DNA of 64,000 nt from Ceratodon purpureus (lineage: Eukaryota; Streptophyta; Bryopsida; Pseudoditrichales; Ditrichaceae). Positions 8,328-33,699 of this stretch are shown here, one piece after another. The number at the start of each line of letters is the position of its first letter. The first letter of the stretch is position 1. The position numbers and the translations under genes were made by a program. The stretch is taken from contig CM026426.1 in the NCBI GenBank assembly GCA_014871385.1, positions 106,117,281 to 106,181,280 on the forward strand. Direction: 5' to 3'. A model generated the notes under the pieces. The model was not told the origin of the DNA. It saw only the letters and a program-made list of their open reading frames with translations, and searched no databases.

Positions 8328-11300
8328 ATGGACTCTGGCAGTGACAGTGACGGTCCCCAGATGCCGTCTGTGGGACCTTCCGGTTACGACTTCTCTCAGG
8401 AATCAACTGCTCGTAGTGATGAGCTTCGACTCGGGCAGTTTGTGAAGCTTGTCGTCCCCCGTTTTGGAGATGTTGGAATCGTATCTGCTGTCGACGTTAA
8501 TCCTTCTGGGCAGTGGCTTGGGGTTTGCATTCCACCTGGCTCGTCGGAATTTATTCTTGTGCGACCATCAAGCATCGCTTCGGACGCAGAGGACCTCTTC
8601 CTCAAACCTCGCCAAAGAGGCTGTAGCGTTTTGAGGGATGCTTTGAATCGAACAGTCCTCTGGAGAGCTGGTGATGCGATTGCATTGTTGCAGGATCCTC
8701 CCATGAACGATGTTGAATACGTTCGTCAACAATCTTGGATTGGTCTGGAAGTTTAGAGGCTAGACCTTGCGGGTGCTGTTCTAGCCTCCGGTAGAGTGTT
8801 CTGCTCAGAACCGGAGGAGTTTTTTTGAGACGGAAGATTGGGCGAGGGATACATTGGAGTGACAATCCTCGACGTATTTGTCGGGGACACTGATGCCATA
8901 ATGAGTAATGAGCGTTGGTTGAGATCTAAATGCAAATTCCCGAACGGCCCTTTTCTTCGGTCAACAGTCGAGCACTTCTCCCGAATCTCAATGGAGGTAG
9001 ATCCGCAAGAGCACCTTGGAGGCAGACGGAAGGCACCTTACCGGTTCACAGTGCGGAAACCTAAAACGCATGAATAACGTTTGCTGTACAATATGAAGAC
9101 AGCGGATGCTGAAGTGAGGAAGGTTGGCTCGGAACGATGCTGCTCAAAGCATTGCTGTCAGACATTTCCCGAGGAGCTCACACTAATAGTGGGTCAGAAA
9201 TTCTATTCAAAATCCTTTCAGGATTGCGGCGGGTGGACAGATGCATTCAGTCGACGGTGACCGTAGGAGGAAGTACTTGACGCTGCATGGTTTGAAAGTT
9301 TGCGCGAGTGCGTGGTATCTTATTCACGGAGTTCCCAAGTCAACTTTTCATAGCTATGTCCAAAGATACAACAAAGGGGTTCTCCCAACAGCGCATGGAA
9401 ACAAGGGCTACAAGCGACCGAGGATCGGAACAGTTCAAGTCATGGGTACTATTGCTGCTATTGTAGACGAGAATGCAGATCAAATGCCCCATCAAATGCG
9501 AGGAATCGCAAATGGACGAGTGGACACTCTGAAATATCTTCCAGTAGGCAACAACTGGAAGCCAGTGATGGCTGACGCCAATGAGGTCCAAGTCTCTGCT
9601 TCGCGTGTCTTCTAATGTCATTGCATCGAGAGATCTCCCGATAGAGGTTACTTTCGTATTGACAGTCACTCCTCTGTCTTACAGTATCGTTGCACTCTAG
9701 CTACGTCATGCACTATATAACTCTTTTCCCCTCTTCGGTGATTTGTCATAATTTGTCGTCTAATACTTGGACCTTGTTCGCTTGCGTGCGTCTCTTTCTT
9801 TGCCTCAGAAGCCATTTGGACGTTCCGGTGCTTTGCAGACAAATGTTTCATTAGGTCTGCCTACAGTGAGCCAGTCTACAATTAGTAGAATTAGAAGTTC
9901 ACTCTTCAACAATATCGCAATCAAACCGGTTGGAAGTTCTTTTGCGAAATGCTCGACATGTGACCAACTTCAAGAATTCATTCTGAAGTCAGCTAACGGA
10001 AGTTCAGAATATGTTGACTTTGTGAAGCAACGGGACGAGCATCTTGCTCACCAAGCCTCTTGTTGTCGTCTGTATGGTGCATGGCGCGAAGAATCAAAGC
10101 GCAATCCCAGTGGGATTCTGTGCATTATTCATGACAAGATGGATACTGCAAAAACCGCCCTTCCCCGGATGCGGGTTACAACAAAGGCTACTCAAGGTTT
10201 GGGCCAACTTCCTATGAACGTCACTGGTATGGTTTCACATGGGCACGGGGATGGCGCCTATACACATTACTGTCCTCAGTGTTGGCCAGGATATTCTAAC
10301 GCCACAATATCGTCATTGGCGAGGCTGTTCCGTCGACTGGAAGGCCCCTCATTTCGGGAGTCTGGGAAACTATTTGAGTACCCCCGTAAAACTCAATGTT
10401 CGAGACATTGTTGAGGGGGAAGTCTAGGTGCCTCGACATTTTACCGCGTATCAAGGGATCCCCCGATGTCCGAGGGTTGAAACCTTTACCAAGGAAGTTA
10501 TACCTTCAGCTGGATAACTCCGCCAAAGATAACAAGAACCAATATCTCATGGCATTTCTCTCCCTGCTGACTGCACGGGGTGTTTTCAAGGAAATTCAGG
10601 CTGGATTTCTACTAGTGGGTCATACGCACCAAGATATTGACGCTTATTTTAGCAATTTGTCGGAGGCATTAAAAAGAAAGAATACGTTTGTTCTAGCGGA
10701 TCTAATGAAGGCCTTCATGCAGTCCCAGGAGTTGTCATTCATGCTGGAGTTCATTCAAGAGGTTGCAGACTTCAAGTCTTTCATCAAAGGCTATCAAAGT
10801 AGTGGAACAGCACGCCTTATTGGACTTGGAGAGATGCACCTTTTCAAGTTCTATGTGGACAATGATGGTTGGCCGGTTATGAGGTACAAGAAATCAGCCG
10901 TCGACGCACAATGGCTACCCCTCAACAGACCCCCTATTCGATTGTGGAATGAAAACATGGATGGCGGCCCAAAACTTCCTCACGGCTCACCAAAGCCGGT
11001 TCCGTTCAAACCTATGTGGGGAAGTGAGGTTCCTAAATCTATTGGGAATCAGGTGAAGGCGAGAGAGACCGCAGCCAAAGCTACTGAAAACAAGAAATTC
11101 ATGAAGTGCGGACTCCAGAAGTACATTGAGTAGTGGAAAAATGGAATGGCAAAATGCGAGGGATTTGCAGCAGCTTTTGGGCCTTATGTTGACAACTGGA
11201 CTTGATTGTTGTCTGAGGTTGATAAGCCTCTGGTAGTGACACATCCTGAATTGTTAGAGGATTTCTAGCCAAGGCATGACTGGAGGGCCGTATCCAACGG

Positions 11301-12949: not shown

Positions 12950-14400
12950 AGTGCTCTAAATTTATCAGGTCTATGATAGGTGATTACTTAATTCTGGACT
13001 CTGGACTGTCCAGAAATAATTAAATATGGCATATGTTAAACAAAGAAAATAAACAAATTAAAGAGGGCATTCATCTTAGAGAAAAATAAAAGGATATGAT
13101 GGGAGAGTGATGGGATTAGATATATAAATATAAACAGTTGGAAGCGGTAATTGGATGATAGAAGAATGTTAAACCGAAATAAAAAATTAAACAAATTCAA
13201 GAGAGTAGGGTTATGAAGAGAAGTAAAGGGATAAGGAAAAACAAATGGAAGAGATAATCAAATGGAAGAAGCATGGGATCAAGAGTCTAAATTGAAGAGG
13301 CAACGGATAATAATTAAGCATGACGGGTCAAGATTAGATAGTGCTAGAGTATGAAGTGCTGGAATACGGGCGAGAACATACGGGCGAGTGCATACGGGCG
13401 GGAGATATATAACGCGCACGGGCAACGCTTGGGAGGCAAAAATCATGCTAAGTTCTGAAAATGGAGGTTGGGCGTCGTTGCTCGACCAAATGCGTCTATA
13501 AGCGCGATCATTTCGGGCGCCATCATATCGGGCGAGTAGACGTCTGCGAAATTCAAAAACACTAACACTCTCGAATTGCCAAATCCTAAGGATCGCGCGC
13601 GTGTGATGAGGGCGCCAGCAGTCGGGCGCCTGCAACGACGGATGCGTGCAACATTGTCGAGACATTCCCAGGGAGAAAATTTATTCAGTGCTTTGACGGC
13701 AGTGCGCGCACCCATAGTTCGACGGGTGCGAGCAGTTTGCGCTTGCGCGTAAAGGCGTGATCTATTATTCAGATGAAAGTGTTTTTGCCGGGAGGGGACG
13801 GACTACGGGCGCGAGTAAACATGCGCGTGCATACGGGTGCGCGAAAACGCACGCGTGCATACGGGCAAGTGTACAGTCTTAATCCACTTACCATAAAATT
13901 CAAAGTTTCACATAGAGAACTAGGAACATCTGATCCATCATATTCTTGAATTGAAACTGGATGGTGGCGGGAACAATCGGATTCCTCTCGAAGTTGATGT
14001 GGACATTCATCTCATATTTAAATGACGAATATAAACGGAATAAAATGATACATGAATTATTTTTAGTGTAGGATAAAGGGAGGAAAGATATAGTCTAGCA
14101 CGTACACGGAATATCCATGCAAAAAATTTTAGTGTGCACCAAAATTACGTAAACATTTATCGTACGATGGAAGGGAGATGAGACAAATGATGGAATGAAC
14201 GACATGTTTGGCGACCCGAAAAACACTGGACCTATGCAAGGAGAATAATAGCGTCTTGGAAATCATGAACAAATCCGGAAAGAAAATTAACATCCATTGT
14301 TTGAGTTTAACAAACATTAAACGTATCCATGCAACCCTAAACAATCTAATTCCCTATGCCTTCTACACGTATTTATATTCCGATATCTTTTTACAAAAAC
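12950..14400. other. AT-rich spacer with a GC-rich 'acgggcg' island at 13330-13880
   Basis: 12950-13320 is A-rich without genes. From about 13330 to 13880 the sequence is dense in ATACGGGCGNG-type words and CpG, like the promoter islands of the cassettes at 17.2, 18.3, 22.6, 23.6 and 41.6 kb, but I see no TATA box followed by an ORF. 13880-14400 shows no gene. Confidence 0.45.
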
Positions 14401-14407
14401 GTAGTCT

Positions 14408-16956
14408 TCATTCATCAATCTCTACGACGTCACGTGCAGAGGAACTCGATCCACCTTCATCATGTCCTGGACGAGAGCTTCCCGCTGCACTACTTTCTGC
14501 CCCATCCCCAGCGATGAGTTTCCGCTTGGCAGAACGAGTTCTCTTAACTGGGCCATCTACTCCAAGTATTGCTTCCATGAATCTGCTCTCTCGCATTCGA
14601 TGGAGCTCTTTAAGGGTCTCCGAACTATGTTGTTCGCATAGGAAATCCACGGCTTTACCCTTGAATAGGTCTATCCATTTGGATTCCGCCATGTTCAAGG
14701 CACTAGCGATGTCGAGTTCCATTTGCAGCTCCTTGCGCTGGTCCGCAACCAGTTTCCCTTTGGAATTCCACTTAAACCCTAGAGGATGAGTGCGGTATTG
14801 GAATGTCTTGTTTTATTCATCCCACTACCCACCAAGCAGTTGTAGAAAAACATCCTCCTTCTCTCGATTTCTTCTACACTCCCGCCTCATGTGAGCGCGT
14901 GGCAGATCTTTACAATCTCCTTAGGATGCATGTCCCACCTCCACTGCGCGCTCATTTCATTCTTGTTGGTCACGTGCTTTCCCATAAACCAATTCCAAAT
15001 CAAGTCCTCACCCCACTTGTCCGGATACTCAGGAGTATTTTCCTTATTTTGCTCCCAATGCGGTGGCATGTAGGTCTCCAAGCCAAACCGCTCATAAAAA
15101 TGCTTGTGGAGGGGGGACTTTTATATTGCACACCACGGACGTATCATGGCATGAGAAATCAAGCACAGTGGATGATACATGCAGTGACAGGATCCCAATG
15201 ACCAGCCTCCCTCTCGCCCAAATGGATTGGTACAAATGGGACACTTGGTTCCATCCAACACGTACTTCTGTGGATTGGGCCAGAGCAATCTGCGCTCTGC
15301 ATTATTAGAGATTTCTCATTAGATGTTGCGGTCTTGTACTCCCATACCAACTGCGTCCAATCTATATCCTTACTATTCATTGGTAAGTCGTCAAGAAACA
15401 TATCATCCACATGTGCCCACAAAGTAAGTCCGAATTCACTCTTGGAGTTCGTCTTGAGGTAGTCATGGTCAATCTTTTGGAACTCATTGTAGATCTGTCT
15501 GTAACGGTTAGCGTTTAGAATGCATGCAATCTTCCATTGGTAGTATTGTTTGCTCATCTGGATCAGATACGTCTTGAGCAACTCGTTGGTAGCTTGCAAT
15601 CTAGAGACAGTGGGTACAAAGGGGACCATGGGAGGAATCGCTGAGTGTTGAAATGACAAAGAATCCTCCGTCTCTTGAGAATCCACAAACATGACTTACT
15701 GCTGGGAAGAGGGGGGGGGGGGGGGTGCATCACTTGACTCGTTGATGCGAATGGGATGATTGGCTTACGAGGAACTCGAACAAGGGTATCTTCCAAGACA
15801 CCGTGCATGGCCGATTCAATGATGGCATTCATTTCAGCCTCGTTCATTCCAAGGCTATCAGGGAGTAGAACCTAGCTTTCCTCGGGTACCCTAATCGGAT
15901 TCCTCGCAGCTTTAAGTTGCCCAATCTCTTCATTCTGCCTCTGAATAATCTCATTCATCCTATCAGCTTCTTTCACCATGTTCTGGATTGTCTTCTCCAT
16001 CTCAACAATTATCGCATTTTTTCCGTTGAGGTGATTAAGCAATGTGTCGCCTTGCTGGTCTTGGGCATCATCCCCGGTTAGTGTAGCCTCCAACTCAGTT
16101 GCAAACCTAGCGTCCCCATCTTCACTTACATTGCTCGGGCCTCCAATCTGTGGAATCAATACAAGAGGAGCTACATAATCATTGCTTGGGCCCCCAACGA
16201 TTGCTAGAGGAGCCTGATCAGCAATATCCACCCAGTAGGATTTGCTGGCAGAGCACGTTTCTTCGCGGACAAACATGCAGCAAGAACAGGGTCCTTCTTT
16301 TTAAGTCGTGTGATTGTAGCTGCAGCTGCTGCTCTTGTTTGCAACTGAGGGAGACGTGTTGACGTACCATCAGAATCACTATCTTCCTCTGAAAAAATCC
16401 ATTGGAGTGGCACTACTACACCACTCTCCTCGAGATCATCCCTGTATGGCCAGTTCACATCGGGAAATGTTCGAACCCCTGTAGGTATAGCCATCTGCCG
16501 GGAACGCTGCCGGATGCTAGGAGTTGACCGTATGGTCCTCCTATCCATCGCCCTATGAAGCACAACCTTGCCATATACCAATCTACAAATAAAGAGTGGA
16601 ATCTCGTTTCTTGGGTTGATCCTCTCCCTATATAAAATTTGGTACACCTCCAAACACCGTTGCCCAAACTGACGATTCTTGCACCATTTCATGTTCGCCT
16701 TGTTTGTAGTACGATTGCGATTATGGCGATGCAACGGGAAATACTTCCCAATGTGGCACCATTCAATGAACTCCTCACACGTATTTAAAGTCCACGGTTG
16801 CAGTGCGGCTTCCCACCCTTGATATGCGAGTTTTGCAGGATTCGATAGGACGTGGACCCTCTTACGATGGTTGTTTCCATTCCATATCCGTCCTTCATCC
16901 TTTTCCCGCTTCCTCTGTTCAGCCGCCGAGGGCGGATTTTGTCGGTGCTGTTCCAT
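14408..16956 (-). pseudogene. cassette gene 1, copy A (unknown family; longest copy)
   Basis: On the minus strand it starts at ATG 16956 (MEQHRQNPPSAAEQRKREKD) and stays open for 250 codons. It then continues through frame changes: 16276-15872 (after a frameshift at NPTG), 15847-15563/15692-15159, 15081-14887 and 14722-14408. The total is ~850 codons. It has a basic N-terminus, then a conserved Trp/Cys-rich block (WTLNTCEEFIEWCHIGKYFP, KWCKNRQFGQRCLEVYQ), a Gly/Pro/Ser linker, a short coiled coil (MEKTIQNMVKEADRMNEIIQ), a KIDHDYLKTNSK block, and an acidic Ser-rich C-terminus with a KRTRSAKRK basic motif. Paralogues are copy B (24105-30485) and copy C (42155-43360). I do not recognise the family; a DNA-binding or packaging role would be a guess. 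Confidence 0.6.
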
Positions 16957-17129
16957 CTGAGCTCAAGGTAGATTGTTGTTCAAAGTCTTTAGAAAGCGCA
17001 AAATTAAAAACCTACGATTACCCCAAAATCTCAATCACATTTACAAATTATAAACATTTACAAGATTTTCAAATTTACCACACAAGCACTATAGAAATTT
17101 CAAGTAAAAGTGCGCAAATGTGTCAATGT

Positions 17130-17610
17130 GCTAGGACCCACTTGGGTACCAAGCAATCAGCTATCCGCAGGCTGTTGAAGGCAACGTGCTCGAAGGGGGG
17201 TGGTGCAAAATGGGAGGGGAGCCCCTTTTTTTATTCATGGGCACCAAGGGACGGGTGCAAGCATTTTGTTACGAGCGCAAGCAGAGACCCTACACGCAAG
17301 CGCGGGCACTATAGCTGGGTCTCGGCCGTGTATACCTCCGCGCCTGCGCGGGTATCAACGTGCGAGAGCAGATACCATGACGCGTATGTGACGGGTGCGA
17401 GCGGGTTTTTTTGCGCACGTGTGGGTAGCGACCCGGTCGTCATCGGGCGCGAGCGGGCTTTGTCAAGGTATAGAAGGGGGTTGTGCGGATATCGTCGCGC
17501 GCGCGGTTATGGATCGAGCGCGATCAGAATTGCACGGACGCGATCGCTAGATGGACGGGTGTGAGCACTGTTCTAGGACGGGCGCGCGCGTTACTGGAAA
17601 CGGGCGCCAC
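17130..17610 (-). promoter_or_regulatory. GC-rich promoter of gene 1, copy A
   Basis: A CpG-dense island of ACGGGCGCGAGC-like words (about 17230-17600) lies directly upstream of gene 1. The TATA position is degenerate here (AATAAAAAAAGGGG on the minus strand near 17225). The conserved downstream motif TTGCCTTCAACAGCC ... GATAGCTGATTGCTT is at 17151-17184 (minus strand), as in the other copies. A probable 5'-UTR intron separates it from the ATG. Confidence 0.6.
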
Positions 17611-17724
17611 CACAAACTAGTACAACGTTAAAAATAAAAAATAAACAAAAAAGAACTTGCAAATTCAGAGGAAAAATAAGAACTTTATTTATTTTGTAAA
17701 TTTATCACTTCATGGTAACGTCAA

Positions 17725-18162
17725 TTACAATGCCATGCACTCTAGGTAACGGTCCTCTAAGTCTTTTAAGTGCGTCTCGAAATGGTTCGTTTGAGCATTG
17801 GAGACAATATTGGGAACAGAAAGTATTGTCATCTCCTTCTTCGGTTCTTTGATGAGATCGCCAATCTCACAATCAAGTTCTCCGACGGTTCGTTGGATTG
17901 CCAACTGCTCTTTAGTGGTTGGAGGCAAAGGCCGTCCATTCTCCGCGTATGCCACCAATTTGTCTCGGCGAGAGTACCAATCCTCGAACAACTCGATCAA
18001 TTTCCGGAGACGCTCCAACATTGACCAAATAATTGTATCCGTTCGTTGTGCGGTGCCCGGTGGAGTGGCACAATTTGTTAAACTCATGTACGACTTGATT
18101 TGTTGACGATTACATGCCTTGTAATTCATGTTAGACGGTAGAGCGATTGTAATGAAACCCAC
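17725..18162 (-). CDS. cassette gene 2, copy A: intact 145-aa protein of unknown family
   Basis: Uninterrupted ORF from ATG 18162 to the stop at 17725. It is mostly helical: IIWSMLERLRKLIELFEDWYSRRDKL, then a Pro/Thr linker, then an amphipathic C-terminal helix (HFETHLKDLEDRYLECM). There are no signal peptide or membrane segments. The ATG is placed 9-10 bp after the conserved GTAGCTGAT promoter motif region and matches the start of copy B (22890). Gene 2 precedes gene 1 in the same orientation in both A and B, each with its own promoter, so the two form a cassette. The function is unknown. Because this copy is intact while its neighbour gene 1 is broken, it may be the better-preserved member, but expression cannot be judged. 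Confidence 0.6.
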   Translation of the reverse strand: MGFITIALPSNMNYKACNRQQIKSYMSLTNCATPPGTAQRTDTIIWSMLERLRKLIELFEDWYSRRDKLVAYAENGRPLPPTTKEQLAIQRTVGELDCEIGDLIKEPKKEMTILSVPNIVSNAQTNHFETHLKDLEDRYLECMAL

Positions 18163-18170
18163 CGTAACAT

Positions 18171-18480
18171 CAAGCTATCAGCTACCCTAGGGCTGTTGAA
18201 GGCAAAATGCACAAAGTGGGGAAGTGCGAATCAGAGGAGGGGGGTGGCATTTTATACGCATGGGGGCGACAGTGTGGGCGCGCGCAACCTGGCGACAGAT
18301 TGATCCTACGCGCGCACACGGTTCTCGTAGCTATGGTACCTGGCGGGTATAAGTACGGGCGTGCACGGGTCTCGTCTGGAGAGTTACAGGCGCAAGCAAC
18401 CTTGATCAGGCGAGAATAATCAGGCGCGATCAGTGCAGATGACGAGCGCACGCAAGTATAGACGACGAGCACAAGCAGGC
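18171..18480 (-). promoter_or_regulatory. GC-rich TATA promoter of gene 2, copy A
   Basis: Minus strand: a CpG-rich island (about 18270-18480), then TATAAAA at 18250-18256, then CCCCACTTTGTGCATTTTGCC, then the shared motif (TTGCCTTCAACAGCC, GGTAGCTGATAGCTT) at 18171-18204, directly before the ATG at 18162. The same order is seen upstream of gene 2 copy B. Confidence 0.7.
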
Positions 18481-18499
18481 GCAGACCTAAACATCCCTC

Positions 18500-18914
18500 T
18501 TTGGGTTTGAATGTCTCTCCCACGGGTTTCCACAAATCGCCACCATTAGGCTCCTCAACATATACCATGCTCTCTTTAGTGTAGTAAAATTCAGGAAGGG
18601 GGATGGGGTTTCCAATAGGACCGATCAGTTGCACGGGTTTTCGCTCCAATCCCTGTGATAGCCTATAGGTCCGCAACCAGTACTTGACCCTGTTTTGACA
18701 AGGCAGATTTTATTCCCTTAGAATTAGTGGATTGGTTGAGTTCTTTTGGCACGTGTTGGGATACATACAAAACAGTCTGATCGTAGAGGAAAAAACCAAT
18801 TATTAGAATGAATAGAAAACAGACCAAAGTATGGAGGAAAAAACCATAGACGCAAAGCAGCCCACGTATGTATATGTGAAGATACGAAGCATAGTGTACA
18901 AAAAAAATTCGCAC
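18500..18914 (-). pseudogene. unrecognised coding fragment upstream of copy A
   Basis: Two overlapping minus-strand frames look protein-like: LYVSQHVPKELNQSTN ... SKQGQVLVADL (ending at 18663), and, one frame away, RTYRLSQGLERKPVQLIGPI ... FYYTKESMVYVEEPNGGDLW, which runs into the promoter island. This looks like one exon or gene with a frameshift, cut by the island of copy A. The family is not recognised. Confidence 0.4.
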
Positions 18915-18996
18915 CCATACTTAACTGCCTACAGAAATCAACACAATCCTACACAAGCCTACTACAACAGTTAGTTAGAGGACTCCAGTACGCTGT

Positions 18997-19979
18997 TCAC
19001 CGGCTTGAGTTTTTTCCCGCCTGGCTTGGGCTGCATCCGGGACTACCAACATCGGGGCAGTTACGAAGAGAAGGGGTCTCCTTTGACTTTCTCTTGCTAG
19101 ATTTTTTCTGCCCACCCTTTTCCACCGCACAGTCCTTCTGCCTTTTACCCTTAGACTTCCGTTTCGTTGCCAACTCATCACCTTCGCTCGATCTCCTACT
19201 GGCCCGCGTCCTCTGGGCAGGTCCCTGTTCTCCGCTTCCTGATCTTCCAATCACACCGTGCTCTTCCAACTCCTCCTGAAGCCTCCTCCCTTCTAAGGAC
19301 TTTCTCTTCCCCTTCACCTGTTTCTCCTTCACCTGTTTCTCCTTGGCCTCGTTCTCAACACCTGGGGCCAAGTCATCTCCTTCGTTACTTTGCTCCATGT
19401 CCTTTTGGTTCTCCTCTTCTTGACACTTCTTATCCTGGTTGGCGGGCACATCCACTTCCATATTGGACTTAACCAAGGAGGTCCAAGGCCTGCCCCAAAT
19501 TTCTAGGCTATCCTGTTCCAACGCCTCCTCTTGCCCCTCGTCTAACTCCTCCTCTCCTATCATCTGGATGCATGTACATCCCCCCCTACCTTACACTTAG
19601 TCTCCCCTCCTCCTTCTATCTCACAATCCAACTCCATGTCACTATCTCTCTTAACCTCCCCGGACCCTAAGCCTATGTCACGTCTTCGCACACCTTCCTC
19701 ATCCGCGTCACTCCTTCGGTCGTCTTCACAAGGGCGTTCCACGGTTTGTATGTCTTCTTTGGCCACCACGTGAACGGGTGGACTCTGGATCAGCCCCTCA
19801 TCCCTAAACTTCTTCTCGATGTCCAACCTCAGCCCATTATCTTCTATTGGTCTGTCGTCCTGTACCTGCAGAACCTGGGGACTATGGCCACTTTCTCCCT
19901 CATTGTCTTCATTATCGCTCCCTTCGCTCTCACTATTGCTGCCACTTGCTGTAGTCCCCGAATTCGAAGATAACGGCAC
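18997..19979 (-). pseudogene. highly charged acidic/basic low-complexity protein
   Basis: Two abutting minus-strand ORFs (19979-19560, 139 aa; 19563-18997, 188 aa) in different frames. The first is Ser/Glu/Asp-rich (SNSESEGSDNEDNEGESGH). The second is Glu-rich, then Lys/Arg-rich, with a short direct repeat (VKEKQVKEKQVKGKRKS) and several candidate nuclear localisation stretches. They may be one gene with a frameshift or a removed intron. The 5' end abuts repeat R1. It is charged and probably disordered; no family can be named. Confidence 0.4.
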
Positions 19980-20095
19980 ACCTCCATTTAAAATTTCAAA
20001 TAATATCCATCCAAATTGAAGTCACAGGTACATGCCCAAACTCCATTTGCACCCCCCGGGGGTGCAAAGACGTTTAGGGGTTAAAAATTGTAATC
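19977..20095. repeat. dispersed repeat R1 (copy 2)
   Basis: Matches 5276-5390 at both ends (CGGCACACCTCCATTTAAAA; TTTAGGGGTTAA) and in the middle (GGTACATGCCCAA), with a different centre that includes GCACCCCCCGGGGGTGC, a perfect 16-bp palindrome. Confidence 0.6.
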
Positions 20096-20682
20096 GACTT
20101 AATGGAAATGGCAAACGTGTAGGAAGTAAATTCAAGAATAATAAGTATTGTATAAGGAATTTAAAAAAATATATAAAAAATAGGAATGAAGATAGTTCTT
20201 ACGACTAAAACGTCGTTCTAGCTACAGTGAACTGCAATTACAACTGAGTAGAAGTTATAAGACGTTGCACTAGCAATTAGGACGTTACTTGTTTCTGCTT
20301 CACTTCTTGTGCATGTAAATATCTTGTTGTGGAGGATTATCCACGCAACTTCTTGTAATAGAAGTAATCTGATTGACTCCAATAGACTTATTTTTTAGCA
20401 CATATGATTCATGCAACATCCTCTCTATTCTATGAATCGATAATTCAGTACACTTTTGATACTTTGACAAGGGAGTGTTAACTAGAATTGGCTCCGATTT
20501 CCAAGTGTAACATTAGGTTGCGTCAAAATTGATCCACACTCTAGACATGATTTGAAATTTTTTTTGATCAATTTAGAGCTAGCTCCTCAACGCTATTAGT
20601 GAATAGTTTCCAACTTTATTGAAGCTAAGGATAGTCAAGTTTCATGGATTGAAAAGGGCAAGAGGTTGGACAAGAACCTCGT
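20096..20682. other. AT-rich stretch, possibly LTR/leader of the gypsy relic
   Basis: No coding frame. It lies immediately upstream of a gag-like ORF, so it may be the remnant of a 5' LTR and leader, but no paired LTR is found in the window. Confidence 0.3.
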
Positions 20683-21750
20683 ATGCGACCAGAGATAGGA
20701 TTTTAGTTGGCTGAGTTTATTCAGCAACAAATTCAAATTGTGTTTCAACCGGTCCTTCTCCATATGGTACAACAACTTTCGGAGCGAGTGGTGGCCGCAC
20801 CGCCTCAAACCTTGTCTTTAGCCACCTTCGAGGCCACTAGACAAAATGAGCATTGGTTTTACAGACATGATAGCGCAGAAGACAAAGAATCAAAAGTTAC
20901 AGAGTCAAAGAAAATTTCGGGAAAAAGAAACCAGGAAATATATTGGTGGTTTACTCAACTCTGTTTAGTATTCCGAGGAAAACCACGTACTCACGTAATT
21001 GAAGAGGACAGAGTTGTGTACGTTCTTTCATACTTAACTAGAGCATCGGAAAGTTGGGCGATGCCACTTCTACAGGCTCTAGATGAAGGACACCAACATG
21101 AGCTCTTGTATGATTAGGTCGCTTTCTGAGAAGCAATCATTGCTGTCTATAGACACATCGATCAAAGAGTGAATGGAGAGGACCAATGAGGGAAGATCAA
21201 ACAAACAAGATATGTGGCGACATACATATCAAGCTTCAATGAACACGCTCTCCAGGTTGACTAGAATGAGTCAAGTTTAATAGCACAATTTTGGGCAAGC
21301 TTAAAGGATGAGATTTTGGATTTGATAGCTACAGTAGAAACAAAATCCAAAAGGCTCCACGAGTGGATTGCCATGGCCTCACAAATTGATGAAAGGTTAT
21401 AGACGCAACGACAAACCAAACGGTATTCATACAACTTTTTGTCCCAAAATTCTCGAGTTATTTCACAAATACTACCTCATACACTGAGGGATCAGTATGG
21501 TTGATTCGCGTTGCCATCAAACACACCAGGTCCAATGCCAATGGAATTGGATGCCGCTTACGTGACGACAACGCTTGCAAAGACTACAATTGAACGATTA
21601 AACATTCGGCAACATGGCAAGTGCTGGAGTTGTGGCCAGATTGGTCATGTGAGAAAAAAATGTCCAACCAAACCTTTGAATCCCTTTTCTATATCTGCTA
21701 TAGATGAAAAAGAGGCACAACATGAAGAATCAGGAAAAGACAATGCCTAG
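20683..21750 (+). pseudogene. Ty3/gypsy-type gag relic with CCHC zinc knuckle
   Basis: A single frame from ATG 20683 to the stop at 21750 encodes a gag-like capsid region (NQEIYWWFTQLCLVFRG ... ASESWAMPLLQAL) and ends in a zinc knuckle, CWSCGQIGHVRKKC (CX2CX4HX4C), at about 21628-21669. The frame is unbroken by indels but has stop codons at 20704, 21115, 21127, 21187, 21262, 21400 and 21502. The following 570 bp give no clear pol. This is an old insertion unrelated in sequence to the young element at 43461. Confidence 0.65.
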
Positions 21751-22325
21751 GACTGAGCGGATGGGCTTGGTACCCAAGCAATCCAAAGGTTATGAAGAAA
21801 CGAATTATAAGAGAATAATGGCTTGATCCAGTTAAATAATAATTATGTGGCTCAAAAAGCGATTTGATGTCAGAACCATTGTATATTTGAGCCGCTTTAA
21901 AGCATGAGACGCATTTAATGATGATTGATCACATAAATTCTATATTGATTCAACCGCTTGTTGATTCAAAGAATTTGAGCTCAAGAATAAGTGGTAAAAG
22001 GGAAGCGTTTCTGACCGTAACTTTACTAGGATTCTAAGAATTGATACATACTCAAATCAAACCATCTTTCTTCTTGGCAAACATGATTGGAGCTGAAACA
22101 GGAGATGTAGACATACGAATCTACCCTTTTTCCCAAATTTTCTTCAAGATAACCCTTGAGTTCTTCCAATTATGTTGAAGACATGGGCCGCAATTTTGAA
22201 TTCCGAGGTACTTGTCCGTCCTTAAATTTAATTTTCATATCTGGTTATCCGTAATTCGAGAGTTCATTTGACGACTTCTTACTAAATACTTCATGCGTGT
22301 CACGATATTCTTCTGATATTGAATC
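21751..22325 (+). other. decayed pol-like or unassignable DNA
   Basis: Follows the gag relic in the position expected for protease/RT, but no conserved motif can be recognised. It ends at the hAT-like terminus at 22326. Confidence 0.3.
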
Positions 22326-22416
22326 CAGGGTTATCATAATAGACGGACGGAGCATAAAATTGTCGTCTAGTCATGTGACGCATGTGACGGACGATTTTTA
22401 ACCTGACTATCGGACG
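22326..22416 (+). repeat. 91-bp hAT-like terminal inverted repeat, left end (cassette copy B)
   Basis: Begins CAGGGTTATCATAATAGACG and contains GTGACGGACGA-type subterminal words. The reverse complement of 53192-53282 matches it at about 70 of 91 positions without a gap. The two ends are in opposite orientation, as expected for termini of one element family. The flanking 8 bp (ATTGAATC here, ACGGCAGT at the other end) differ, so they belong to two different insertions or to a rearranged one. Confidence 0.6.
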
Positions 22417-22479
22417 CGCTTATCGGACGGGCTCCCCCTCGCGAGTAAAATTACTGTCTTCACAGTTTACTACTGTTTA

Positions 22480-22880
22480 CCATGGGTGGCGCCCGTCGTC
22501 GCGTGCGCGCGCGTATCTGCGCCAGCTCGCACCCGTCAGCTAGGGTTGATCGCGCCCGTCCTCTGTCTCGCGCGCGCGCGTCACCTGCAGTGACCGCGCC
22601 CGATTGTCCTCGCCGGATCAGGGTCGCCCGCGCCCGTAGCATATCGCTCGCGCCCGAAACTCTCCCGCCGAGACCCGTGCGCGCGCGTACTTATACCCGG
22701 CGGGTACCCTGACTACCGAAACCGCGTGCGCGCGTAGGACCAATCTGCTCGCGCCCGTACCAGCCTGCGCACGCCCACACTGTCGCCCTCGTGAGTATAA
22801 AATGCCACCCTCCTCCCTTGATTCGCACCTCCCCACTTTGTGCATTTTGCCTTCAACAGCCCGAGGGTAGCTGATTGCTT
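22480..22880 (+). promoter_or_regulatory. GC-rich TATA promoter of gene 2, copy B
   Basis: CpG-dense island of CGCGCCCGT-type words (22480-22795), TATAAAA at 22796-22802, then CCCCACTTTGTGCATTTTGCC and the shared motif TTGCCTTCAACAGCC ... GGTAGCTGATTGCTT (22847-22880), ten bases before the ATG of gene 2 at 22890. Organisation is the same as in copy A. Confidence 0.7.
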
Positions 22881-22889
22881 AGTGTTACG

Positions 22890-23326
22890 ATGGGTTTCAC
22901 AACAATCAATGTACCGTCCAACATGAATTCCAACGCATGCAATTGCCAACAAATCAAGTCGTACATGAGTTTAACGAATGGTGCCACTCCACCGGGCACT
23001 GCACAACGAACGGACACAATTATTTGGTTAATGCTGGAGCGACTCCTGAAACTGATCAAGTTGTTCAAGGATTGGATCTCTCGCCGAGACAATGCGGTGG
23101 CATACGCAGAGAATGGACGGCTCTCGCTCCAACCACTGAAGAGCAGTTGGCTACCTAAGGAATCGTCGAAGAACTTGATTGTGAGATTGGCGATCCCATG
23201 AAAGAACTAAAGAAGGAGATGGCAATACTTTGTGTCCCCAATATTGTCTCTAGTGCTCAAACAAACCATTTCGAGACGCACTTGAAAAACCTAGAGGACC
23301 AATACCTAGAGTGCATGGCACAGTAA
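22890..23326 (+). pseudogene. cassette gene 2, copy B (frameshifted)
   Basis: Homologous over its full length to the intact 145-aa copy A (shared QQIKSYMSLTN, ATPPGTAQRTDTIIW, NHFETHLK). Compared with A it has a one-base deletion near 23112 (after ENGR), which shifts the frame, and an in-frame TAA shortly after (EEQLAT, stop). The original C-terminus ends at 23326. Confidence 0.7.
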
Positions 23327-23429
23327 TTGACATTACAATTAAGTGATATATTTACAAAATAAATAAAGTCTTTTTTCAACCCTGAATTTGCAAGTTCTTT
23401 TTGGTATATCTCTGATTTTTATCGGTGTT

Positions 23430-23908
23430 CTAGTTTGTGGTGGCGCCCGTTTTCGGGAACGCGCGAGCCCGTCCTAGAGCAGTGCTTGCACCCGTCCATC
23501 CAGAGATCGCCCCCGACGGCTGCGGTTGCACCCATACAATTTTGATCGCGTCCGATCCATAACCGCGCGGGCGCAATGCTTTCCGCGCACGCGCCCCTCC
23601 CGTACCCGGACGACGCCCGCTACCCGCTCGCGCCCGTCATATACCCGCCATAGGAACCGCTCGCGCCTATTGATATCCGCATAGGCGCGGAGGTATACAC
23701 AACCGAAACCCTGCCTACAGTGCCCGCGCGCGCGTGTAGGGTCTCTACGCGCGCCCGTAGGAGAATGCTCGCGCCCGTTCCCTGGCGCCCGTGACTATAA
23801 AAGGGCGATCCGCCCCCTCCCCCCCCCCCCCCCAAAATTTTGCACTCCCCCCCCCCCCCCCCCCCTTGAGCACCTTGCCTTCAACAGCCTCCAGATAGCT
23901 GATTGCTT
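23430..23908 (+). promoter_or_regulatory. GC-rich TATA promoter of gene 1, copy B, with poly-C tracts
   Basis: Island of CGCCCGT/CGCGCCCG words, TATAAAA at 23796-23802, then two poly-C runs (~23818-23834 and ~23846-23870), then the shared motif at 23874-23908 and a good splice donor (CAGGTGGGTCC). A 5'-UTR intron probably runs to just before ATG 24105. Confidence 0.65.
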
Positions 23909-24104
23909 GGTACTCAGGTGGGTCCCAGCACTTTGACACCTGTCCGCGCTTTTATTCTTCAAAACTCTATGGTGGTTGTGTGGTATGTTTGAGTATATTG
24001 TAAATGTTTATAATTTGTAAATGTGATTGAGGTTTTGGGATAATCGTAGGCTTTTAATTTTGCACTTTTTGAAGATTTCGAAGAAGGATCTACCTCGAGC
24101 AGAG

Positions 24105-25810
24105 ATGGAACAACAACGACCGAATCCGCCCACGGAGGCAGAACAGAGGAAACGGCAAAAGGATGAAGGACGTAAAAGGCATGGAAACAAGCAATGTAAG
24201 AGAGTTCACGTCCTCACAAATCCTGCAAAGCTGGCATTCCGAGGGTGGGAAGCCGCACCGCAACCGTGGACTCTAGCTACGTGTGAGGAATTCATTGAAT
24301 GGTGCCACATAGGGAAGTTTTTCCCGTTCCAATGCCATAATCGCAATCAAGCCACAAACAAGGCGAACATGAAATGGTGCAAGAACCGTCAGTTTGGGAC
24401 CCGGTGTTTGGAGGTGTACCAGGTTATATACGGGAAGAGGATCAACCAGAGAAATGAGATTCCACTCTTTATTTGTATAATAGTATATGCCGAGGTAATG
24501 CTTCATAGGCAGGTGGATTGGAGGACCATACGGTTGACTCCTTGCATCCAGCGGCGTCCACAAGAGATGGCTATACGCACAAGGGTTCTAACATTTCCAG
24601 GTGTGGATTGGCCATAGTAGGATGATCCTGAGGAGAGAGTTGCACATGGGCCACTTTAGTGGAGTGATTCAAAACCGGATAATGATTCTGATGGTACGGT
24701 AGACCGTCCCCCTCAGTCGCAAACAAAAGCAGCGGCTATTGCTAGAATCACACGGATAAAAAAGAAGGATCCTGAGCCGGCTGCCTGTTTGTCGACGAGG
24801 AATCGTGCTTTGCCAGCAAATCCTACTGGGGTGGGTATTGCTGGTCAGGCTCCTCTAGCAATCGTTGGGGGCCCAAGCAATGTTGATGTAGCTCCTCCTA
24901 TATTAATTCTACAAATTGCGGGCCCAAGCAATGTTGATGTAGCTCCTCCTGTATTGAATCCACACATTGCGGGCCCGAGCAATGTAATGGAAGATGATGA
25001 TGCTAGGTTTGCAATTGAGTTGGAGGCTACATTAACCGGGGATGATGCCAAAGGCCAGCAAGGCGACACATTGTGTAACGAGGTGGAAGAAAAAAAATGC
25101 GATAATTTGTGAGATGGAGAAGACAAAACAGAACTTGTATGACGAAGCTGATAGGATGAATGAAATTATCCGGAAGCGGAATGAAGAGATTGAGCAACAT
25201 AAAGCTGCGAGGAATCCGATTAACATATCCAAGGTGACCCAGGCTCCAATCCCTGGCAGCCTTGGAATGAACGAGGACGACATGAATGCCATCATTGAAT
25301 TGGCCACGCACGGTGTCTTGGAAGATACCCCGGTCTGAGTTCCCGTAAGCCAATGATCCCATTCGCATCATCGAGTCAAGTGATGCACCCCCCCAGCAGC
25401 AAGTCATGTTTGTGGATTCTCAAAAGACGGAGGACTCTTTGGGATTTCAAGAGTCAGCAATACCCACTGTCTCCGAATTGCAAGCTACCAACGGAATGCT
25501 CAAAACGTATCTGATCTAGATGAGCAAACAACACTACCAATGGAAGATTGGATGCATTCTGAACGTTGACCGTCACAGAGAGATGTACAGTGAGTTCAAA
25601 AAGATTGACCATGACTACCTCAAGATTAACTCCAAGAGGGATATTGGACTTACTTCGTGGGCACATGAGGATGAAATGTTCCTTGACGACTTACCGATGA
25701 TTGGTAAGGAAATAGATTGGACGCAGTTGGGGTGGGAGTACAAGACCGCAACATCCAATGAGAAATTCCTTGGGAATGCACAGCCAATATTGCTCTGGCC
25801 TAATCCATAG
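24105..25810 (+). pseudogene. cassette gene 1, copy B, 5' part
   Basis: Starts MEQQRPNPPTEAEQRK and follows copy A to WPNP at 25810. Stops in the original frame are at 24615, 24618 and about 24660; a frameshift sits in an A-run near 25090, and a further frame change precedes the KIDHDYLK block (ORF 25520-25810). The linker carries a duplicated GPSNVDVAPP motif not present twice in A. The gene is then split by the element at 25814-29882 and resumes at 29883. 405 bp of it (24041-24445) are identical to copy C. Confidence 0.7.
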
Positions 25811-25983
25811 AAGCAAGGCTGTCACGGACGTCCGAAACGCTCGGCACATGGGGACGTCCGCGGACGTCCGCCAGCGCCACAGGACGTCCTGTGACTTAGA
25901 AAAAAAAAATTACCCGCACAGGTTTCACCTCGAGGTGAAACCACACATTGAACGTGGCGGGAGGGGTTGCGGGAGCAGAAAGC

Positions 25984-26360
25984 GGCCGTCGCCGCGGAGG
26001 AGGGGCCGTCGCCGCCGTGGGGAGGCCGTCCTCGGCGACGGCCCCTTGCCGTCGCCGCGGAGAGGCGCCGTCGCCGCGGTGGGGGGGTCGTCCCCAACGA
26101 CGGCCCCTTGCCGTCGCCGCGGAGGGTGGGCCGTCGCCGCGGTGGGGGGGCCGTCCCCGGCGACGGCCCCTTGCCGTCGCCGCGGAGAGGGGCCGTCGCC
26201 GCGGTGGGGGGGCCGTCCCCGGCGACGGCCCCTTGCCGTCGCCGCGGAGGGGGGGCCGTCGCCGCGGTGGGGGGGCCGTCCCCGGCGACGGCCCCTTGCC
26301 GTCGCCGCGGAGAGGGGCCCTCGCCGCGGTGGGAGGGCCGTCCCCGGCGACGGCCGCGAA
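25984..26360. repeat. ~63-bp GC-rich minisatellite (about 6 copies)
   Basis: Unit built from GGCCGTCGCCGCGG, GGGGGCCGTCCCCGGCGACGG and CCCCTTGCCGTCGCCGCGG. Because the unit length is near a multiple of three and nearly stop-free, all frames on both strands appear open; these are not genes. Confidence 0.8.
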
Positions 26361-26389
26361 GACGGCTGCAAATTTTTTTAAAAAAAATC

Positions 26390-29190
26390 CCGAATCTTGA
26401 AATCTTCATAACTTCTTCAAAACGTATCCAAATTGGGCTTATGAGGTGTTTTTTGGCATCTACATTTCCTGTAGAGGCCAAAAAACATCTCATAAGTCCA
26501 ATGTGGACAAGTTTTGAAGAAGTTACGGGAATGTTGAGATTTCGGGGAGTTGAGGGGTCGGCCGTCGGCGGAGATGGGGGGGGGCCGACCCCGCTGACGG
26601 CCGTGGAGACGGCCGGCCGTCTCCACGGTGACGGCCGCGGAGACGGCCCCCCGTCCGCTTGGAGGCGGGGTCTCGCATGGCCTTCTTTCTGCTCTTGCGT
26701 TTTCTCTAGGGACGGCCTCCCCTCCCCTCTTCCCCTCGTCCAACCTTTGACAGAAGAATTCTATTTCTAGATACTCTAAAAACAAAATCAATACCGAATT
26801 AGAAATTTTAGACATATCCCTGAAATCATGGAAAATGTCCAAAAGATTTTGTAATCGGGATTGTGAGATACGCCTTGATGTTGGGGTATACTTTAGAAGG
26901 AGGTATTTATGCTGTTCAATTGTTGGTGCTCTACTTTGGTTTGCAAACATAATCTCAATGTCTAGAAGGAAGATTACCTTTGTTTTGGAAATGAAATTAT
27001 GGCCCATGGGCCTATAGAAGAAGGAGGTATACAATGGGTGGTACAACTTAAAAGGTAATGAGAAGCTAATAAAAAATAAATTTTTTTTATATGTAGACAT
27101 TATTTCGTTAGGTAATAAAATTAAAGGAGAACTCGACATGGATTTCTCTTACATTAATATGACAAGTTTGTATGTTTTTGGCTTTAATTTTATAAGGCAA
27201 GACAAATCCTTTTTTCCATGAAAATGCTCTTTTCCTAATTAATTGCTTTCTTGGGTATTTAAAATTATGCCCACTGTAGTTTGTATATCTTAGTGTTATT
27301 GAAGTTATTTCTTATGTTTTTAAATACCATTTTATTCTATATAATTATAATTAACTATTTTCCAATTATTGTCTCGTGCTTTATCTAATCCTTTAAACTT
27401 TAAGAAAAAAGTCCTTTCTAAGTTGGATATTTTTATTTAGTTTCTTCTTTTGCCATAATGTTATCACCATGACATGGTTTATTCTATTCACTTCATACTC
27501 CTCATTTCTTCTTGTATGTCATTTCCACTCTTGCAATTATTATTATTATTTTTGATTTGATCTTATATTCTAATTATCTTTTTGATTTATTATTACCTCT
27601 CATGTACTTTTTTTTTTTTTTTTTTCCCCTTGATATCTATCTTCTCTATACACATCTATTTCCTTCAAACCTTTTCCCATTGTAGTTTGTCTGTCTCGCG
27701 GTTATTTGTTATGTTTCATTTACTGTCATATTGTATTTTATTTCAATTGTCTTTTTTTTATTATTGTCTTGTACATAATATAATCCCCTAATCTTTTATT
27801 TATCTTTCCTTTCTTCCGATAGGCAAAAGTAAAAAGATAGAATGGGAGACAGATTAGAGGAATATTAAATAAATAAATAGATGATGGGAGAGGAATGGAA
27901 GGATAGGAAAACGAGAAGATAAAATGGAAGAATAATGTTAAGATAAAAAACTAAAGAGACAATAGAATGGAAAAATAGTGTAATAATAAAAAGTTAAGAG
28001 TATAGAATGGAATAATAATTTAATCATAAAATAACAAGAAGATAGAATGGAAGGCAAATGGAAAAAGTATAAAAATAAAAGGTAGAATCGGAGACTAAGG
28101 AAAGAATACAAAATAATTAAATACTTAAATAAATAAATAAACAAATATAAATTTTTGGCTATGAAGTATGTGTTTGTATTTCCACATTTAGATGAATCCA
28201 CATATTATGTCTTTCATTCATAAAAATAATGATTATGAATCACCTTTAAGATGGAAAAAAATCATAAGTCTCAGAATAAAAAATTGACGAGATTTGTTAA
28301 ACTTTAAGCCATATAAACTCGGTGTTTGTCTAAAAGGAATGGAAGGCAAACAATGTGGCATTCACTTGCCCAAGTACTCAAATGTAATACTAGCATATCT
28401 TTCATTTCAAAAGCAAGAAACAGTTCTCTTAATGTCAACTCCCAAACCTTCAAAATTCACTCACCTTTTAAAATTAAACATCCACCCTTGTCAGATTGCT
28501 TGGTTTTTTAATTAATTAATCAATTTATTTATTATTAGAACTAAAATTTATTGAATTTAAATTTCTATCCTCTATCACTTATAATGAATTTTTTGTCCAC
28601 CATCTTCGACTTCTAATTCAACTTTACAATCCTCAATTCTATTTAATGTGTCCTCCAACCTCCTTCACACAATTTCAACCTCTATCTAATTTGATTTGAA
28701 ATCTAATTTCTAAGTAATACGTCCTCTACATCATACCTTCCAAATCCTCTCATTCAAATTCAATTCTAAATTTCAAGTTTATCCTTTATTTAATTCCAAT
28801 GTTCCATTTATGGAAAAGGGATTTGTCTTGCCAAAAAAGAGATTCTGTCAAAGGTTGGACGAGGGGAGGAGGGGAGGGGAGGCCGTCTCTAGAGAAAACG
28901 CAAGAGAAGAAGGAAGGCCATGTGAGACCCCGCCTCCAAGCGGATGGGGGGCCGTCTCCGCGGCCGTCAGCGGGGTCGGCCCCCCCCCCCCCCCCCCCCG
29001 TCTCCGCCGACGGCCGACCCCTCAACTCCCCGAAATCTCCAAATTCCCGTAACTTCTTCAAAACTTGTCCAAGTTGGACTTATGAGATGTTTTTTGGCAT
29101 CTACAGGAAATGTAGATGCCAAAAAACACCTCATAAGCCCAATTTGGATACGTTTTGAAGAAGTTATGAAGATTTTATGATTCGGGATTT
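26390..29190. repeat. long internal inverted repeat of the hAT-like element
   Basis: About 370 bp at 26390-26770 reappears in inverse orientation at about 28840-29190. Matching landmarks include AACTTCTTCAAAAC, GGTGTTTTTTGGCATCTACA, CGGCCGTCTCCACGG-like GC blocks, and CTGTCAAAGGTTGGACGA. Each arm also contains a smaller inverted repeat around TTTTTTGGC. The loop is AT-rich low-complexity DNA. Confidence 0.7.
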
Positions 29191-29882
29191 TTTTTTTTTA
29201 ATTTGCGGCCGTCCCCGCGGCCGTCGCCGGGTTTGGCCGCGTCTCCACGCGGTCGGCCACGTGGACGGCCGCGTCTCTACGCGGTCGCCAACGCGGACGG
29301 CCGCGGGATCGGACGGCCCTCCGCGGCCAACCATGCCGGCCGCGGGCCATCTGATTCCGCGGCTGTCGCCGTGGCCGAACGCGGGGACGGCCACGGGGAC
29401 GGCCGCGGAATCCGACGGCCCGCGGTCAGCCGCAGCGATCAGGCGGTCCCTGATGGCCCGCGCCGTGGTCGATCCGGGATGTCGGATCCCGCGGCCGTGA
29501 CCGTGGCCGTCGCCGCGGTCGGCCACGGTGACGGCAGCGGGATCTGACGGCCTAGGAGGGCCGCCCACATCCGACGGCCCACGATGTGCCTACACGGCCG
29601 CATCTTGGCCGTCGGATCGAGGTGCGGCCGTCCCCAGCGACCCCGCGGCCGTCTCAGCGGCCGTCCTCGCGGCCGTCCCCGCGAACGGACGGCCGAGATA
29701 GGGCGTGGTGGCGGGACCGGCCGATCGGACGGTTGGGGGATGTTTTTACCCCCTCGGGATCGCAAAATTATTACCGCGACGTAATTCTCGAGCGTCGGGG
29801 ACGCCACGTCCGGGACGGGGGACGTCCGGGTCGGACGTCCGGACGTCCGGAGCCGGGTCGGACGTCTATTTGAACAACCCTG

Positions 29883-30485
29883 CATAGAAGTATGTGTTGG
29901 ATGGAACCAAGTGTCCCATTTGTACCAATCCATTTGGGCTAGAGGGGGGCTGATCATTGGGATCCTGTCAATGCATGTATCATCCACTGTGCTTGATTTC
30001 CCATGCCATGATACGTCGGGTGGTGTGCAGTATGTAAGTCCCCCTTACACAGGCGTTTTTATGAGCAGTTCGGCTTGGAGACCTACATGCCACCGCATTG
30101 GGAGAAAAATGAGGAAAATACTCCTGAATATCCGGACAAGTGGGGTAACGACTTGATTTGGAATTGGGTTATGGGAAAGCACGCAACCTACAAGAGCGAA
30201 ATGAGCACGCAATGGAGATGGGACACAAATTCTAGTGAGATTGTAAGGATTTGCCAGAATGTCACACGAGGTAGGACCCAAGAAGAAGTGGAGGGAAGAA
30301 AGATTTTCTTTAACCAAACGCTAGGTGGGTACTTGGATGAAGAGAACAAGAAATTCCAATTTGGACCTCATCCTCGAGGGTTTCAGTGGAATTCCAAAGA
30401 AAAGAAGGCCGTTAATCAGCGCTGGAGAGGCGGATGCTTGTTGCTACGCCGAATATGCCAAACTACTACATTGGCACATATGTAG
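29883..30485 (+). pseudogene. cassette gene 1, copy B, 3' part
   Basis: Resumes the gene after the insertion. The METYMPPHWEKNEENTPEYP block (30075) matches copy A (15081), and NSKEKK matches A near 14770. A stretch VTRGRTQEEVEGRKIFFNQ is preserved in frame here but frame-broken in A. It diverges from A after about 30420. Confidence 0.65.
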
Positions 30486-31490: not shown

Positions 31491-31494
31491 GCGC

Positions 31495-31800: not shown

Positions 31801-31975
31801 AAGAGCGACATTGGACAACATCACAAGAGAGGAGAGAAGTTTTTGGAGAGGGCAGGTGTGGAGTGTTATGCTTATTGAAAAGTATTGCAAAATTGTGGCA
31901 ATAAACCACTTACAAAGAATGTTCCATCATATAACAAAGAGGGAATATCACATTTGTGTCACCACTTGCGTAATT

Positions 31976-33547: not shown

Positions 33548-33699
33548 AATTACTAGCTTAATTGTACACAAAAAAAATCAAGAAATCCCCCCCGCCCGAT
33601 CTGATTGCTCCCATTTCCTGCAGTTCCAAGCAGAGCACGTGGAGTCACGAGCTAGGACAAGGAGCCACCTAGAAGAGGAGGCTTTGCAAAGTATTAAAT

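Follow-up and report, generated by a model that had tools for sequence, protein, structure and literature searches.

What are the gene cassettes that recur in a 64,000-nucleotide stretch of the Ceratodon purpureus genome (hereafter the window, C6:106117281-106181280), and to what kind of system do they belong? A first-pass annotation, made from the letters of the window alone, saw a cassette of two genes in fixed order, each behind its own promoter (promoter, gene 2, promoter, gene 1), in copy A on the minus strand and copy B on the plus strand, with a reduced copy C, and suggested that both proteins work for a single mobile system. We conclude, with a probability of roughly 0.88, that the cassettes are decayed copies of a four-gene DNA transposon of the hAT superfamily, approximately 13.3 kb long and acting as proposed below. 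The idea of one mobile system holds because the gene pair is linked (at 50 of 53 loci) inside an element with a common terminus, 8-bp target duplications and a hAT transposase. The pair itself is real, but it is only the front half of the complete unit, which also includes genes for the transposase and for a protein kinase. In full copies all four genes lie on the same strand, in the order gene 2, gene 1, hAT transposase and kinase.

The ends of the element were read from relatives of copy A, collected with the RING region of its gene 1 as a DNA query (best 40 of 295 candidates scored); 10-kb stretches were fetched around 20 of these 40. In 18 of these 20 loci, as well as in window copy B, pairwise alignments break off at one shared left position; the two exceptions, L010 and L017, start later. 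The left end is typically CAGGGTTATCATAAT and mostly reads CAGGGTTATCATAATGGACGG, with TAGGG, CATGG, CAAGG and two more decayed forms as variants. Flanks outside this end are unrelated, except that B and L025, being duplicates, have the same one. For the right ends, an extra 10 kb downstream was taken for four copies and then nine more stretches, one from L027 once more and eight from new copies. L013 and L014 are homologous over about 13.3 kb, gaps aside, and end together at TTATGACAACCAT(G/A); the match of L011 ends at 10.8 kb of its stretch and that of L027 continues past its stretch. The terminal inverted repeats are imperfect and about 24 bp long (left, CA(G/T)GGTTATCATAAT.. or TAGGG..; right, inverted, CATGGTTGTCATAAC..). 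Four of the five copies with a located right end have 8-bp duplications, three of them exact: L014 has AACGGCAC on both sides, L022 has CTTGCATG twice and L009 has GGTATGTG twice. The fourth, L013, is flanked by CCTTGCAA and CCTTGCTA (CCTTGC[A/T]A, 7/8). The 8-bp duplication, inverted repeats of the CAGGG/TAGGG type and hAT transposase domains are thus all present, as expected of a member of this superfamily.

The linkage of the genes was followed through the genome in lists of loci that are all scored subsets and not copy numbers. The search with P0001, an open-frame database homologue of gene 1, yielded the best 53 of 1675 candidates (95-98% identical), and that with P0003, a homologue of gene 2, the best 150 of 323 (up to 100% identical). 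For the transposase, 61 loci (63 matches) came from 1694 candidates, and for the kinase 79 of 1454 were scored. Gene 2 precedes gene 1 by 750-792 bp, with both on the same strand, at 50 of the 53 scored gene 1 loci, and no other arrangement of the two genes within 6 kb was found among the 53. The co-occurrence that the first-pass annotation had wanted checked genome-wide is therefore supported, the genes not being found mostly apart. In all but one of the 20 older relatives fetched, gene 2 likewise precedes gene 1 (in L010, gene 2 was not found within the fetched stretch). A listed kinase lies downstream of gene 1, on the same strand and within 16 kb, at 32 of the 53 loci, a listed transposase within 12 kb at 12, and both at eight. 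The kinase follows the transposase within 8 kb at 21 of the 61 transposase loci, 13 of these at exactly 2384 bp. No kinase or transposase match on the opposite strand was found among the scored loci within the ranges tested; three kinase matches precede a gene 1 on its own strand, less than 18 kb from it.

By its domains, the gene that follows gene 1 in full copies is predicted to encode a hAT transposase with an acidic tail. One frame of L031 matches PF04937 (DUF659) with 117.2 bits (cut-off 34.7), and a second, overlapping L031 frame, which continues into the acidic stretch, matches PF05699 (Dimer_Tnp_hAT) with 25.6 bits (cut-off 21.4). CSD, CTDN and CCAH are seen in the L031 transposase frame. 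A 1151-codon transposase frame is present in 25 of the 63 rows of the transposase search, two of the 25 with a stop. The predicted protein kinase gene after the transposase is open over 552 codons in L013; the Pkinase family is matched with 35.8 bits by the window copy (cut-off 31.7) and with 27.0 bits, below the cut-off, by L013. The kinase frame of L030 includes HNDISPGN, DWG (instead of DFG) and APE. PDB sequences gave no match for the transposase at E<=1 and none for the kinase at E<=0.01.

The first-pass annotation placed neither gene 1 nor gene 2 in a known family, which stands for gene 2 and not for gene 1, in which there is a RING domain. A read-through of copy A gene 1, searched among 5.8 billion proteins, has two relatives, P0001 (850 amino acids, 64% identical) and P0002 (790 amino acids, 36%). 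The length of P0001 agrees with the approximately 850 codons proposed for gene 1. A profile of P0001 and P0002 recovered 16 proteins, 15 besides P0001, with P0002 not among them. The protein is laid out as a conserved N-terminal region, a coiled coil, a RING finger and a C-terminal region; in a 17-protein alignment the invariant columns lie in the N-terminal part, and several rows are without the remainder. The eight zinc ligands, with RING spacing, are present in 11 of the 17 family proteins; the sequences of the remaining six are short or end before this region is complete. Compared with PDB sequences, the gene 1 profile matches RNF24 (RING finger protein 24; E 6.5e-7) and other RING E3s. 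Pfam zf-RING_2 is matched by nine of 18 alignment rows (E<=0.01), P0001 itself reaching only 9.4 bits, and the rest of the 850-residue protein has no Pfam match beyond a sub-threshold coiled coil. The predicted structure is poor (mean predicted local distance difference test score, pLDDT, 55.4), and a fold search with it returned weak RING matches, the best to RNF38 (E 0.72). The fourth RING ligand is Cys, not His, in P0001, P0007 and, on visual inspection, also in window copies A and B. From these sequence features we infer that the gene 1 product is an E3 ubiquitin ligase; the outcome that would have spoken against the original proposal, gene 1 being one ordinary gene of the host, did not occur. 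Relatives that are about 36-43% identical still have the N-terminal region, and in the 11 that extend as far as the RING its ligands are retained; thus the gene 1 protein has been long maintained. A separate gene-1-like stretch, L024:7-882 (+), on the strand opposite to the old copy, is 44% identical to P0001 residues 544-840 with no stop, and is a more distant member of the gene 1 family.

The gene 2 product is 134-150 amino acids long in the element. Copy A gene 2 has three protein relatives, 70-87% identical. It starts with GTG, that of copy B with ATG, and the start equivalent to that of P0003 lies at 18129 in A. No family was found above cut-offs in Pfam and NCBIfam scans. The structural model is poor (mean pLDDT 55.5) and all-helical save two short strands in the low-confidence N-terminus, and with low confidence it suggests a helical protein.

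All four genes, in the copies read, have a GC-rich block with a TATA-like box in front of them. The individual promoters of the first-pass annotation are real, and they are also mutually homologous: the promoter-like modules of gene 2 and gene 1 are 69% identical over 216 nt, and the core TTGCCTTCAACAGCC (<=3 mismatches) occurs in five of five modules (two in A, two in B, one in C). TATAAAA is present in four of the five, the exception being the gene 1 module of A. A supposed third promoter at 37242 matches none of the five modules by blastn and was set aside as chance. The octamer CGCGCCCG (<=1 mismatch, both strands) is concentrated in the element, with 90 occurrences in L013 against an expectation of 9.1 (standard deviation 3.1) and 89 in L014 against 8.4 (standard deviation 3.5), the expectation coming from first-order simulations of the whole element rather than of its GC-rich blocks alone. 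In L013, 88 of the 90 lie outside the approximate gene bounds, and before the kinase gene the octamer is mostly inverted. None occurs in 6.6 and 6.7 kb of flank of L013 and L014. These arrays may be putative binding sites, comparable to those of VANC proteins.

Textbook behaviour suggests how such an element could work: a hAT transposase excises its element at the ends and inserts it at staggered 8-bp targets. Here the transposase would bind the element ends and bring about cut-and-paste movement. The RING protein would be an E3 ubiquitin ligase that, together with the kinase and the gene 2 product, aids expression or movement; the kinase would phosphorylate, and the gene 2 product would be a helical partner. 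Host proteins that silence or restrict the element would be their likeliest targets. Activity is inferred, as are the helper roles of the RING protein, kinase and gene 2. A narrower version, in which the RING ligase and kinase, with gene 2, remove or modify host silencing or repair factors and are guided by the CGCGCCCG arrays, is tentative and we hold it to be possible rather than probable. If true, it would amount to a form of counter-silencing that is not known to us from hAT elements.

We regard it as unlikely, if worth serious thought, that the additional genes are passengers, host RING, kinase and small-protein genes that a hAT element captured by transduplication and that have no role in movement. 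RING proteins and kinases are common host families, and selection on gene 1 is weak. Among old copies (sets without L025), the median ratio of nonsynonymous to synonymous substitution rates (dN/dS) is 0.60 for gene 1 (231 pairs, 22 copies), 0.32 for gene 2 (190 pairs, 20 copies), 0.49 for the transposase (10 pairs, five copies) and 0.43 for the kinase (three pairs, three copies), while two non-coding blocks in nine copies, used as a pseudo-control with the same estimator, give 0.74 and 0.71. Dead copies weaken any selection signal. Gene 2, with its 0.32, and the kinase, with 0.43 from three pairs only, argue against capture without function; together with the transposase they lie further below the control than gene 1, with few pairs for transposase and kinase. 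Also difficult for passengers are the order and spacing fixed at 50 of 53 loci, the stop-free frames at scored loci (gene 1 40/53, with 9/14 on C6; kinase 58/79; gene 2 139/150), the N-terminal region and RING ligands retained in distant gene 1 relatives, and the promoter block that each gene has of its own, those of genes 1 and 2 being homologous.

A multi-copy host gene family, spread by segmental duplication and merely near transposons, is very improbable. There is a recent inverted duplication in the window (36132-41487 with 58645-64000, 99.9%), A and B stand head to head, and L018/L019 and B/L025 are mutual duplicates; yet the sharp common terminus, mostly unrelated flanks and 8-bp duplications already contradict it, young gene 1 occurs on 13 contigs and full copies include the transposase. 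Scarcely credible, too, is a virus-derived or polinton-like element, to which the gene density, the one promoter block per gene and the frequency of kinase and RING genes in large DNA viruses could point, given that P0001 and P0003, each used to scan 2.9 million viral contigs at a sensitivity that reaches close relatives only, gave no match, that no capsid or DNA polymerase family was found among the element proteins scanned, and that the ends, the 8-bp duplication and the transposase are those of hAT.

Several observations weigh against the four-gene hAT transposon with acting helper genes. Gene 1, gene 2 and the kinase, for which the helper role is a putative one, could be passengers, and the gene 1 dN/dS is little under the non-coding control. 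The DDE triad and CxxH motif of the transposase, which would lie in an RNase-H-like fold, are candidate features read from sequence motifs. Right ends were located in just five of the 12 copies sought, and the ends and duplications read are those of old copies. The right flank of L019, AATCAATT, is unlike its own left flank and equals the left flank of L018. These two copies are near-identical, in opposite orientation and about 170 kb apart (G000:C6, about 13.30 and 13.47 Mb), and the mismatch is as after an exchange or inversion between them (right flank stretch L035). No listed kinase lies within 16 kb of 21 of the 53 gene 1 loci, and no listed transposase within 12 kb of 41; missing listed neighbours do not mean absence, because the lists are scored subsets. 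Lastly, L042, the sole autosomal young-type gene 1 fetched, has three stops in the first of two pieces that are 81% and 95% identical to P0001. It lies on C2, upstream of a transposase with the 1151-codon frame.

The transposon has copies of different ages, and these differ in where they lie. The assembly comprises 362,488,568 bases in 151 contigs, and C6, the contig of the window, accounts for 110,524,308 of them (30.5%); C8, C11 and C2 measure 18.0, 17.2 and 26.6 Mb. The scored gene 1 loci found with P0001 are on contigs C1-C13, 14 of the 53 on C6 (binomial p 0.65 against 30.5%). Among the best 40 matches to copy A, 38 are on C6 (A included) and one each on C8 and C11 (binomial p about 1e-17), with the caution that the 40 were picked by likeness to A, and some are mutual duplicates, so that they are not independent. 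Because of this contrast (38 of 40 against 14 of 53), the sequence comparisons indicate a young family spread over C1-C13 and an old, decayed one almost only on C6; the mixed-age lists call for caution here, since those of gene 2 (77/150 on C6) and the transposase (34/61) also lean to C6, with the kinase at 30/79. Confinement of the whole family to the 110.5-Mb contig was considered and rejected: the restriction to C6 is true only for the best matches to copy A, because searches with intact relatives matched other contigs. P0001 and P0003 are up to 98% and up to 100% identical to loci here, so that this species, or a close one, is probably the source of both database proteins. A tree of 23 copies has terminal branches of 0.036-0.085 for 18 of them and shorter ones for five (B, C, L025, L018, L019). 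In this tree, C is closer to L025 than B is, despite the flank shared by B and L025; conversion between copies B, C and L025 is possible.

According to a published review, the genome of the moss Ceratodon purpureus measures 360 Mb, and its sex chromosomes, U and V, are each larger than 100 Mb, about 30% of the genome (PMC8000587). By its size, C6 would be such a chromosome, and the window presumably lies on it. The old dead and the young lineage may offer a natural contrast for following the fate of a transposon on a large, probably non-recombining chromosome.

Within the window, the remains of the element reach further than 14408-25810, the extent first assigned to the feature: it exceeds this on both sides, and copy D and a scrap near 53 kb are two more fragments. 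Copies A-D are old inserts that have lost function. By blastn of L013 against the window, copy A (13035-18463, minus) is the left part of the element (L013 positions ~237 to ~5750), 83.7% identical over 5389 columns with weaker pieces reaching 13035, and it lacks the first ~236 bp, left terminus included. Its gene 2 promoter-like module (18163-18420, minus) has the motif array, TATAAAA, TTGCCTTCAACAGCC and TAGCTGAT. As annotated at first, its gene 2 is intact, an open frame of 145 codons from a GTG start (17728-18162, minus; 87% identical to P0003), and gene 1 is broken in all window copies A, B and C. The gene 1 module of A, homologous to that of gene 2 and without an exact TATAAAA, is at 17110-17420 (minus), and gene 1, with stops and frame changes, at 14411-16956 (minus).

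The left half of copy B (22326-25813, plus) starts at the left terminus CAGGGTTATCATAAT. Its gene 2 (22923-23320, plus), recognised by its match to P0003, has a frame change near 23120; the gene 1 promoter-like module follows at 23600-23940 (plus) and the broken first part of gene 1 at 24105-25813 (plus). In self-comparison, A 15265-18470 (minus) and B 22554-25813 are 79.0% identical over 3343 columns, which upholds the repeated cassette. A 14758-15272 also matches 29883-30399 (85.1% over 517 columns), and copy B is thus split by a 4.07-kb insertion. This insertion (25814-29882), delimited by self-comparison and its end letters, has the 8-bp duplication CATAGAAG and ends CAAGG.../...CCCTG (CAACCCTG at the far end); it is rich in GC palindromes and is probably a second, hAT-like element. 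The second part of copy B gene 1, with a RING remnant, runs from 29883 (plus) until similarity stops near 30419.

Copy C (41490-43363, plus) did keep its promoter, as first noted, but only about the first 418 of the 850 codons of gene 1, its N-terminal half; it is 79.9% identical to A over 1838 columns and 86.7% identical to B over 1943. Copy D (31373-35987, minus) is the right part of another copy, with the transposase C-terminus, acidic tail, kinase and right end, the last bases of which are lacking (79.3% to the L013 element over 4741 columns). Its kinase gene (31979-33644, minus) is 69% identical to the L013 kinase with four stops in the match, and its transposase C-terminal part (35472-35987, minus) has two stops. 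A left-end fragment at 53094-53282 (minus) begins CAGGGTTGTCATAATAGACGG. About 10 kb to the left of the window, on the copy A strand, lies a kinase relative (G000:C6:106105927-106107549, minus), which could belong to another copy or represent the right end of A, moved away from it.

Other features share the window with these copies. The arms of the inverted duplication (36132-41487 and 58645-64000) are 99.925% identical over 5356 columns and reach the window edge. One boundary separates exons of a gene for ribosomal protein S3, which has matched exons at 57644-59138 and a partial copy at 40994-41414 (minus); the blocks of this gene are 84-95% identical, and the last block 66%, to a plant S3 sequence. 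L025, beyond the window, has a counterpart of window 19972-21600 as well as the copy B relative with the same left flank, so that the arms may be longer. A Gypsy-type long terminal repeat (LTR) retrotransposon at 43460-52578 has 638-bp LTRs that are 99.8% identical, a 5-bp duplication (ACATA), an 1810-codon frame with reverse transcriptase, RNase H and integrase domains, and another frame of 453 codons. A DUF7869 gene remnant (9764-11130, plus; 131.5 bits) is possibly another transposon's. A broken gene at 573-1983 (minus) includes the stretch IGGQHTVQCYRDL, which may resemble ParB-like proteins; the frame that contains it has no Pfam match.

How does the four-gene element compare with known systems? 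Textbook hAT elements (Ac, Tam3, hobo, Tol2) have one transposase gene and measure about 3-5 kb. Like the DUF659 branch of hAT, the present element has an 8-bp duplication, imperfect CAGGG/TAGGG ends and a transposase with DUF659 and the hAT dimerisation region; unlike the textbook elements, it is about 13.3 kb long, with three further genes and a promoter block for each. The RING finger has the eight zinc ligands and spacing of RING-H2 / C4HC3 E3 ligases such as RNF24 and RNF38, and differs from these in the Cys at the fourth ligand in the four sequences named above and in the unmatched remainder of the protein. VANDALs, which are Mutator-like, provide another comparison, since VANDAL21 (with the transposase VANA, VANB and the anti-silencing VANC) is likewise a multi-gene plant DNA transposon with non-coding motif repeats. 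A study of Arabidopsis VANDAL21 describes VANC21-binding regions built of short repeated motifs and names the VANC domains DUF1985/DUF287 (PMC5735166); anti-silencing VANC proteins are also treated in a further study (PMC10398659). The transposase here is hAT, unlike that of VANDALs, the likeness to VANC is one of general description, and neither DUF1985 nor DUF287 is among the Pfam matches of the scanned proteins.

The transposase, ends and duplication thus belong to a known superfamily, and the four-gene set, with RING, kinase and gene 2, is one that we do not know from hAT elements. A limited literature search found no account of multi-gene hAT elements with RING or kinase genes, nor of hAT elements in Ceratodon. 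Annotation pipelines may call copies of the RING, kinase and gene 2 genes host genes, and they should be masked as transposon genes. That a hAT family keeps four genes in fixed order, a RING ligase and a kinase among them, with frames still open at many of its loci, suggests that genes acting on the host can be carried by DNA transposons as they are by large viruses.

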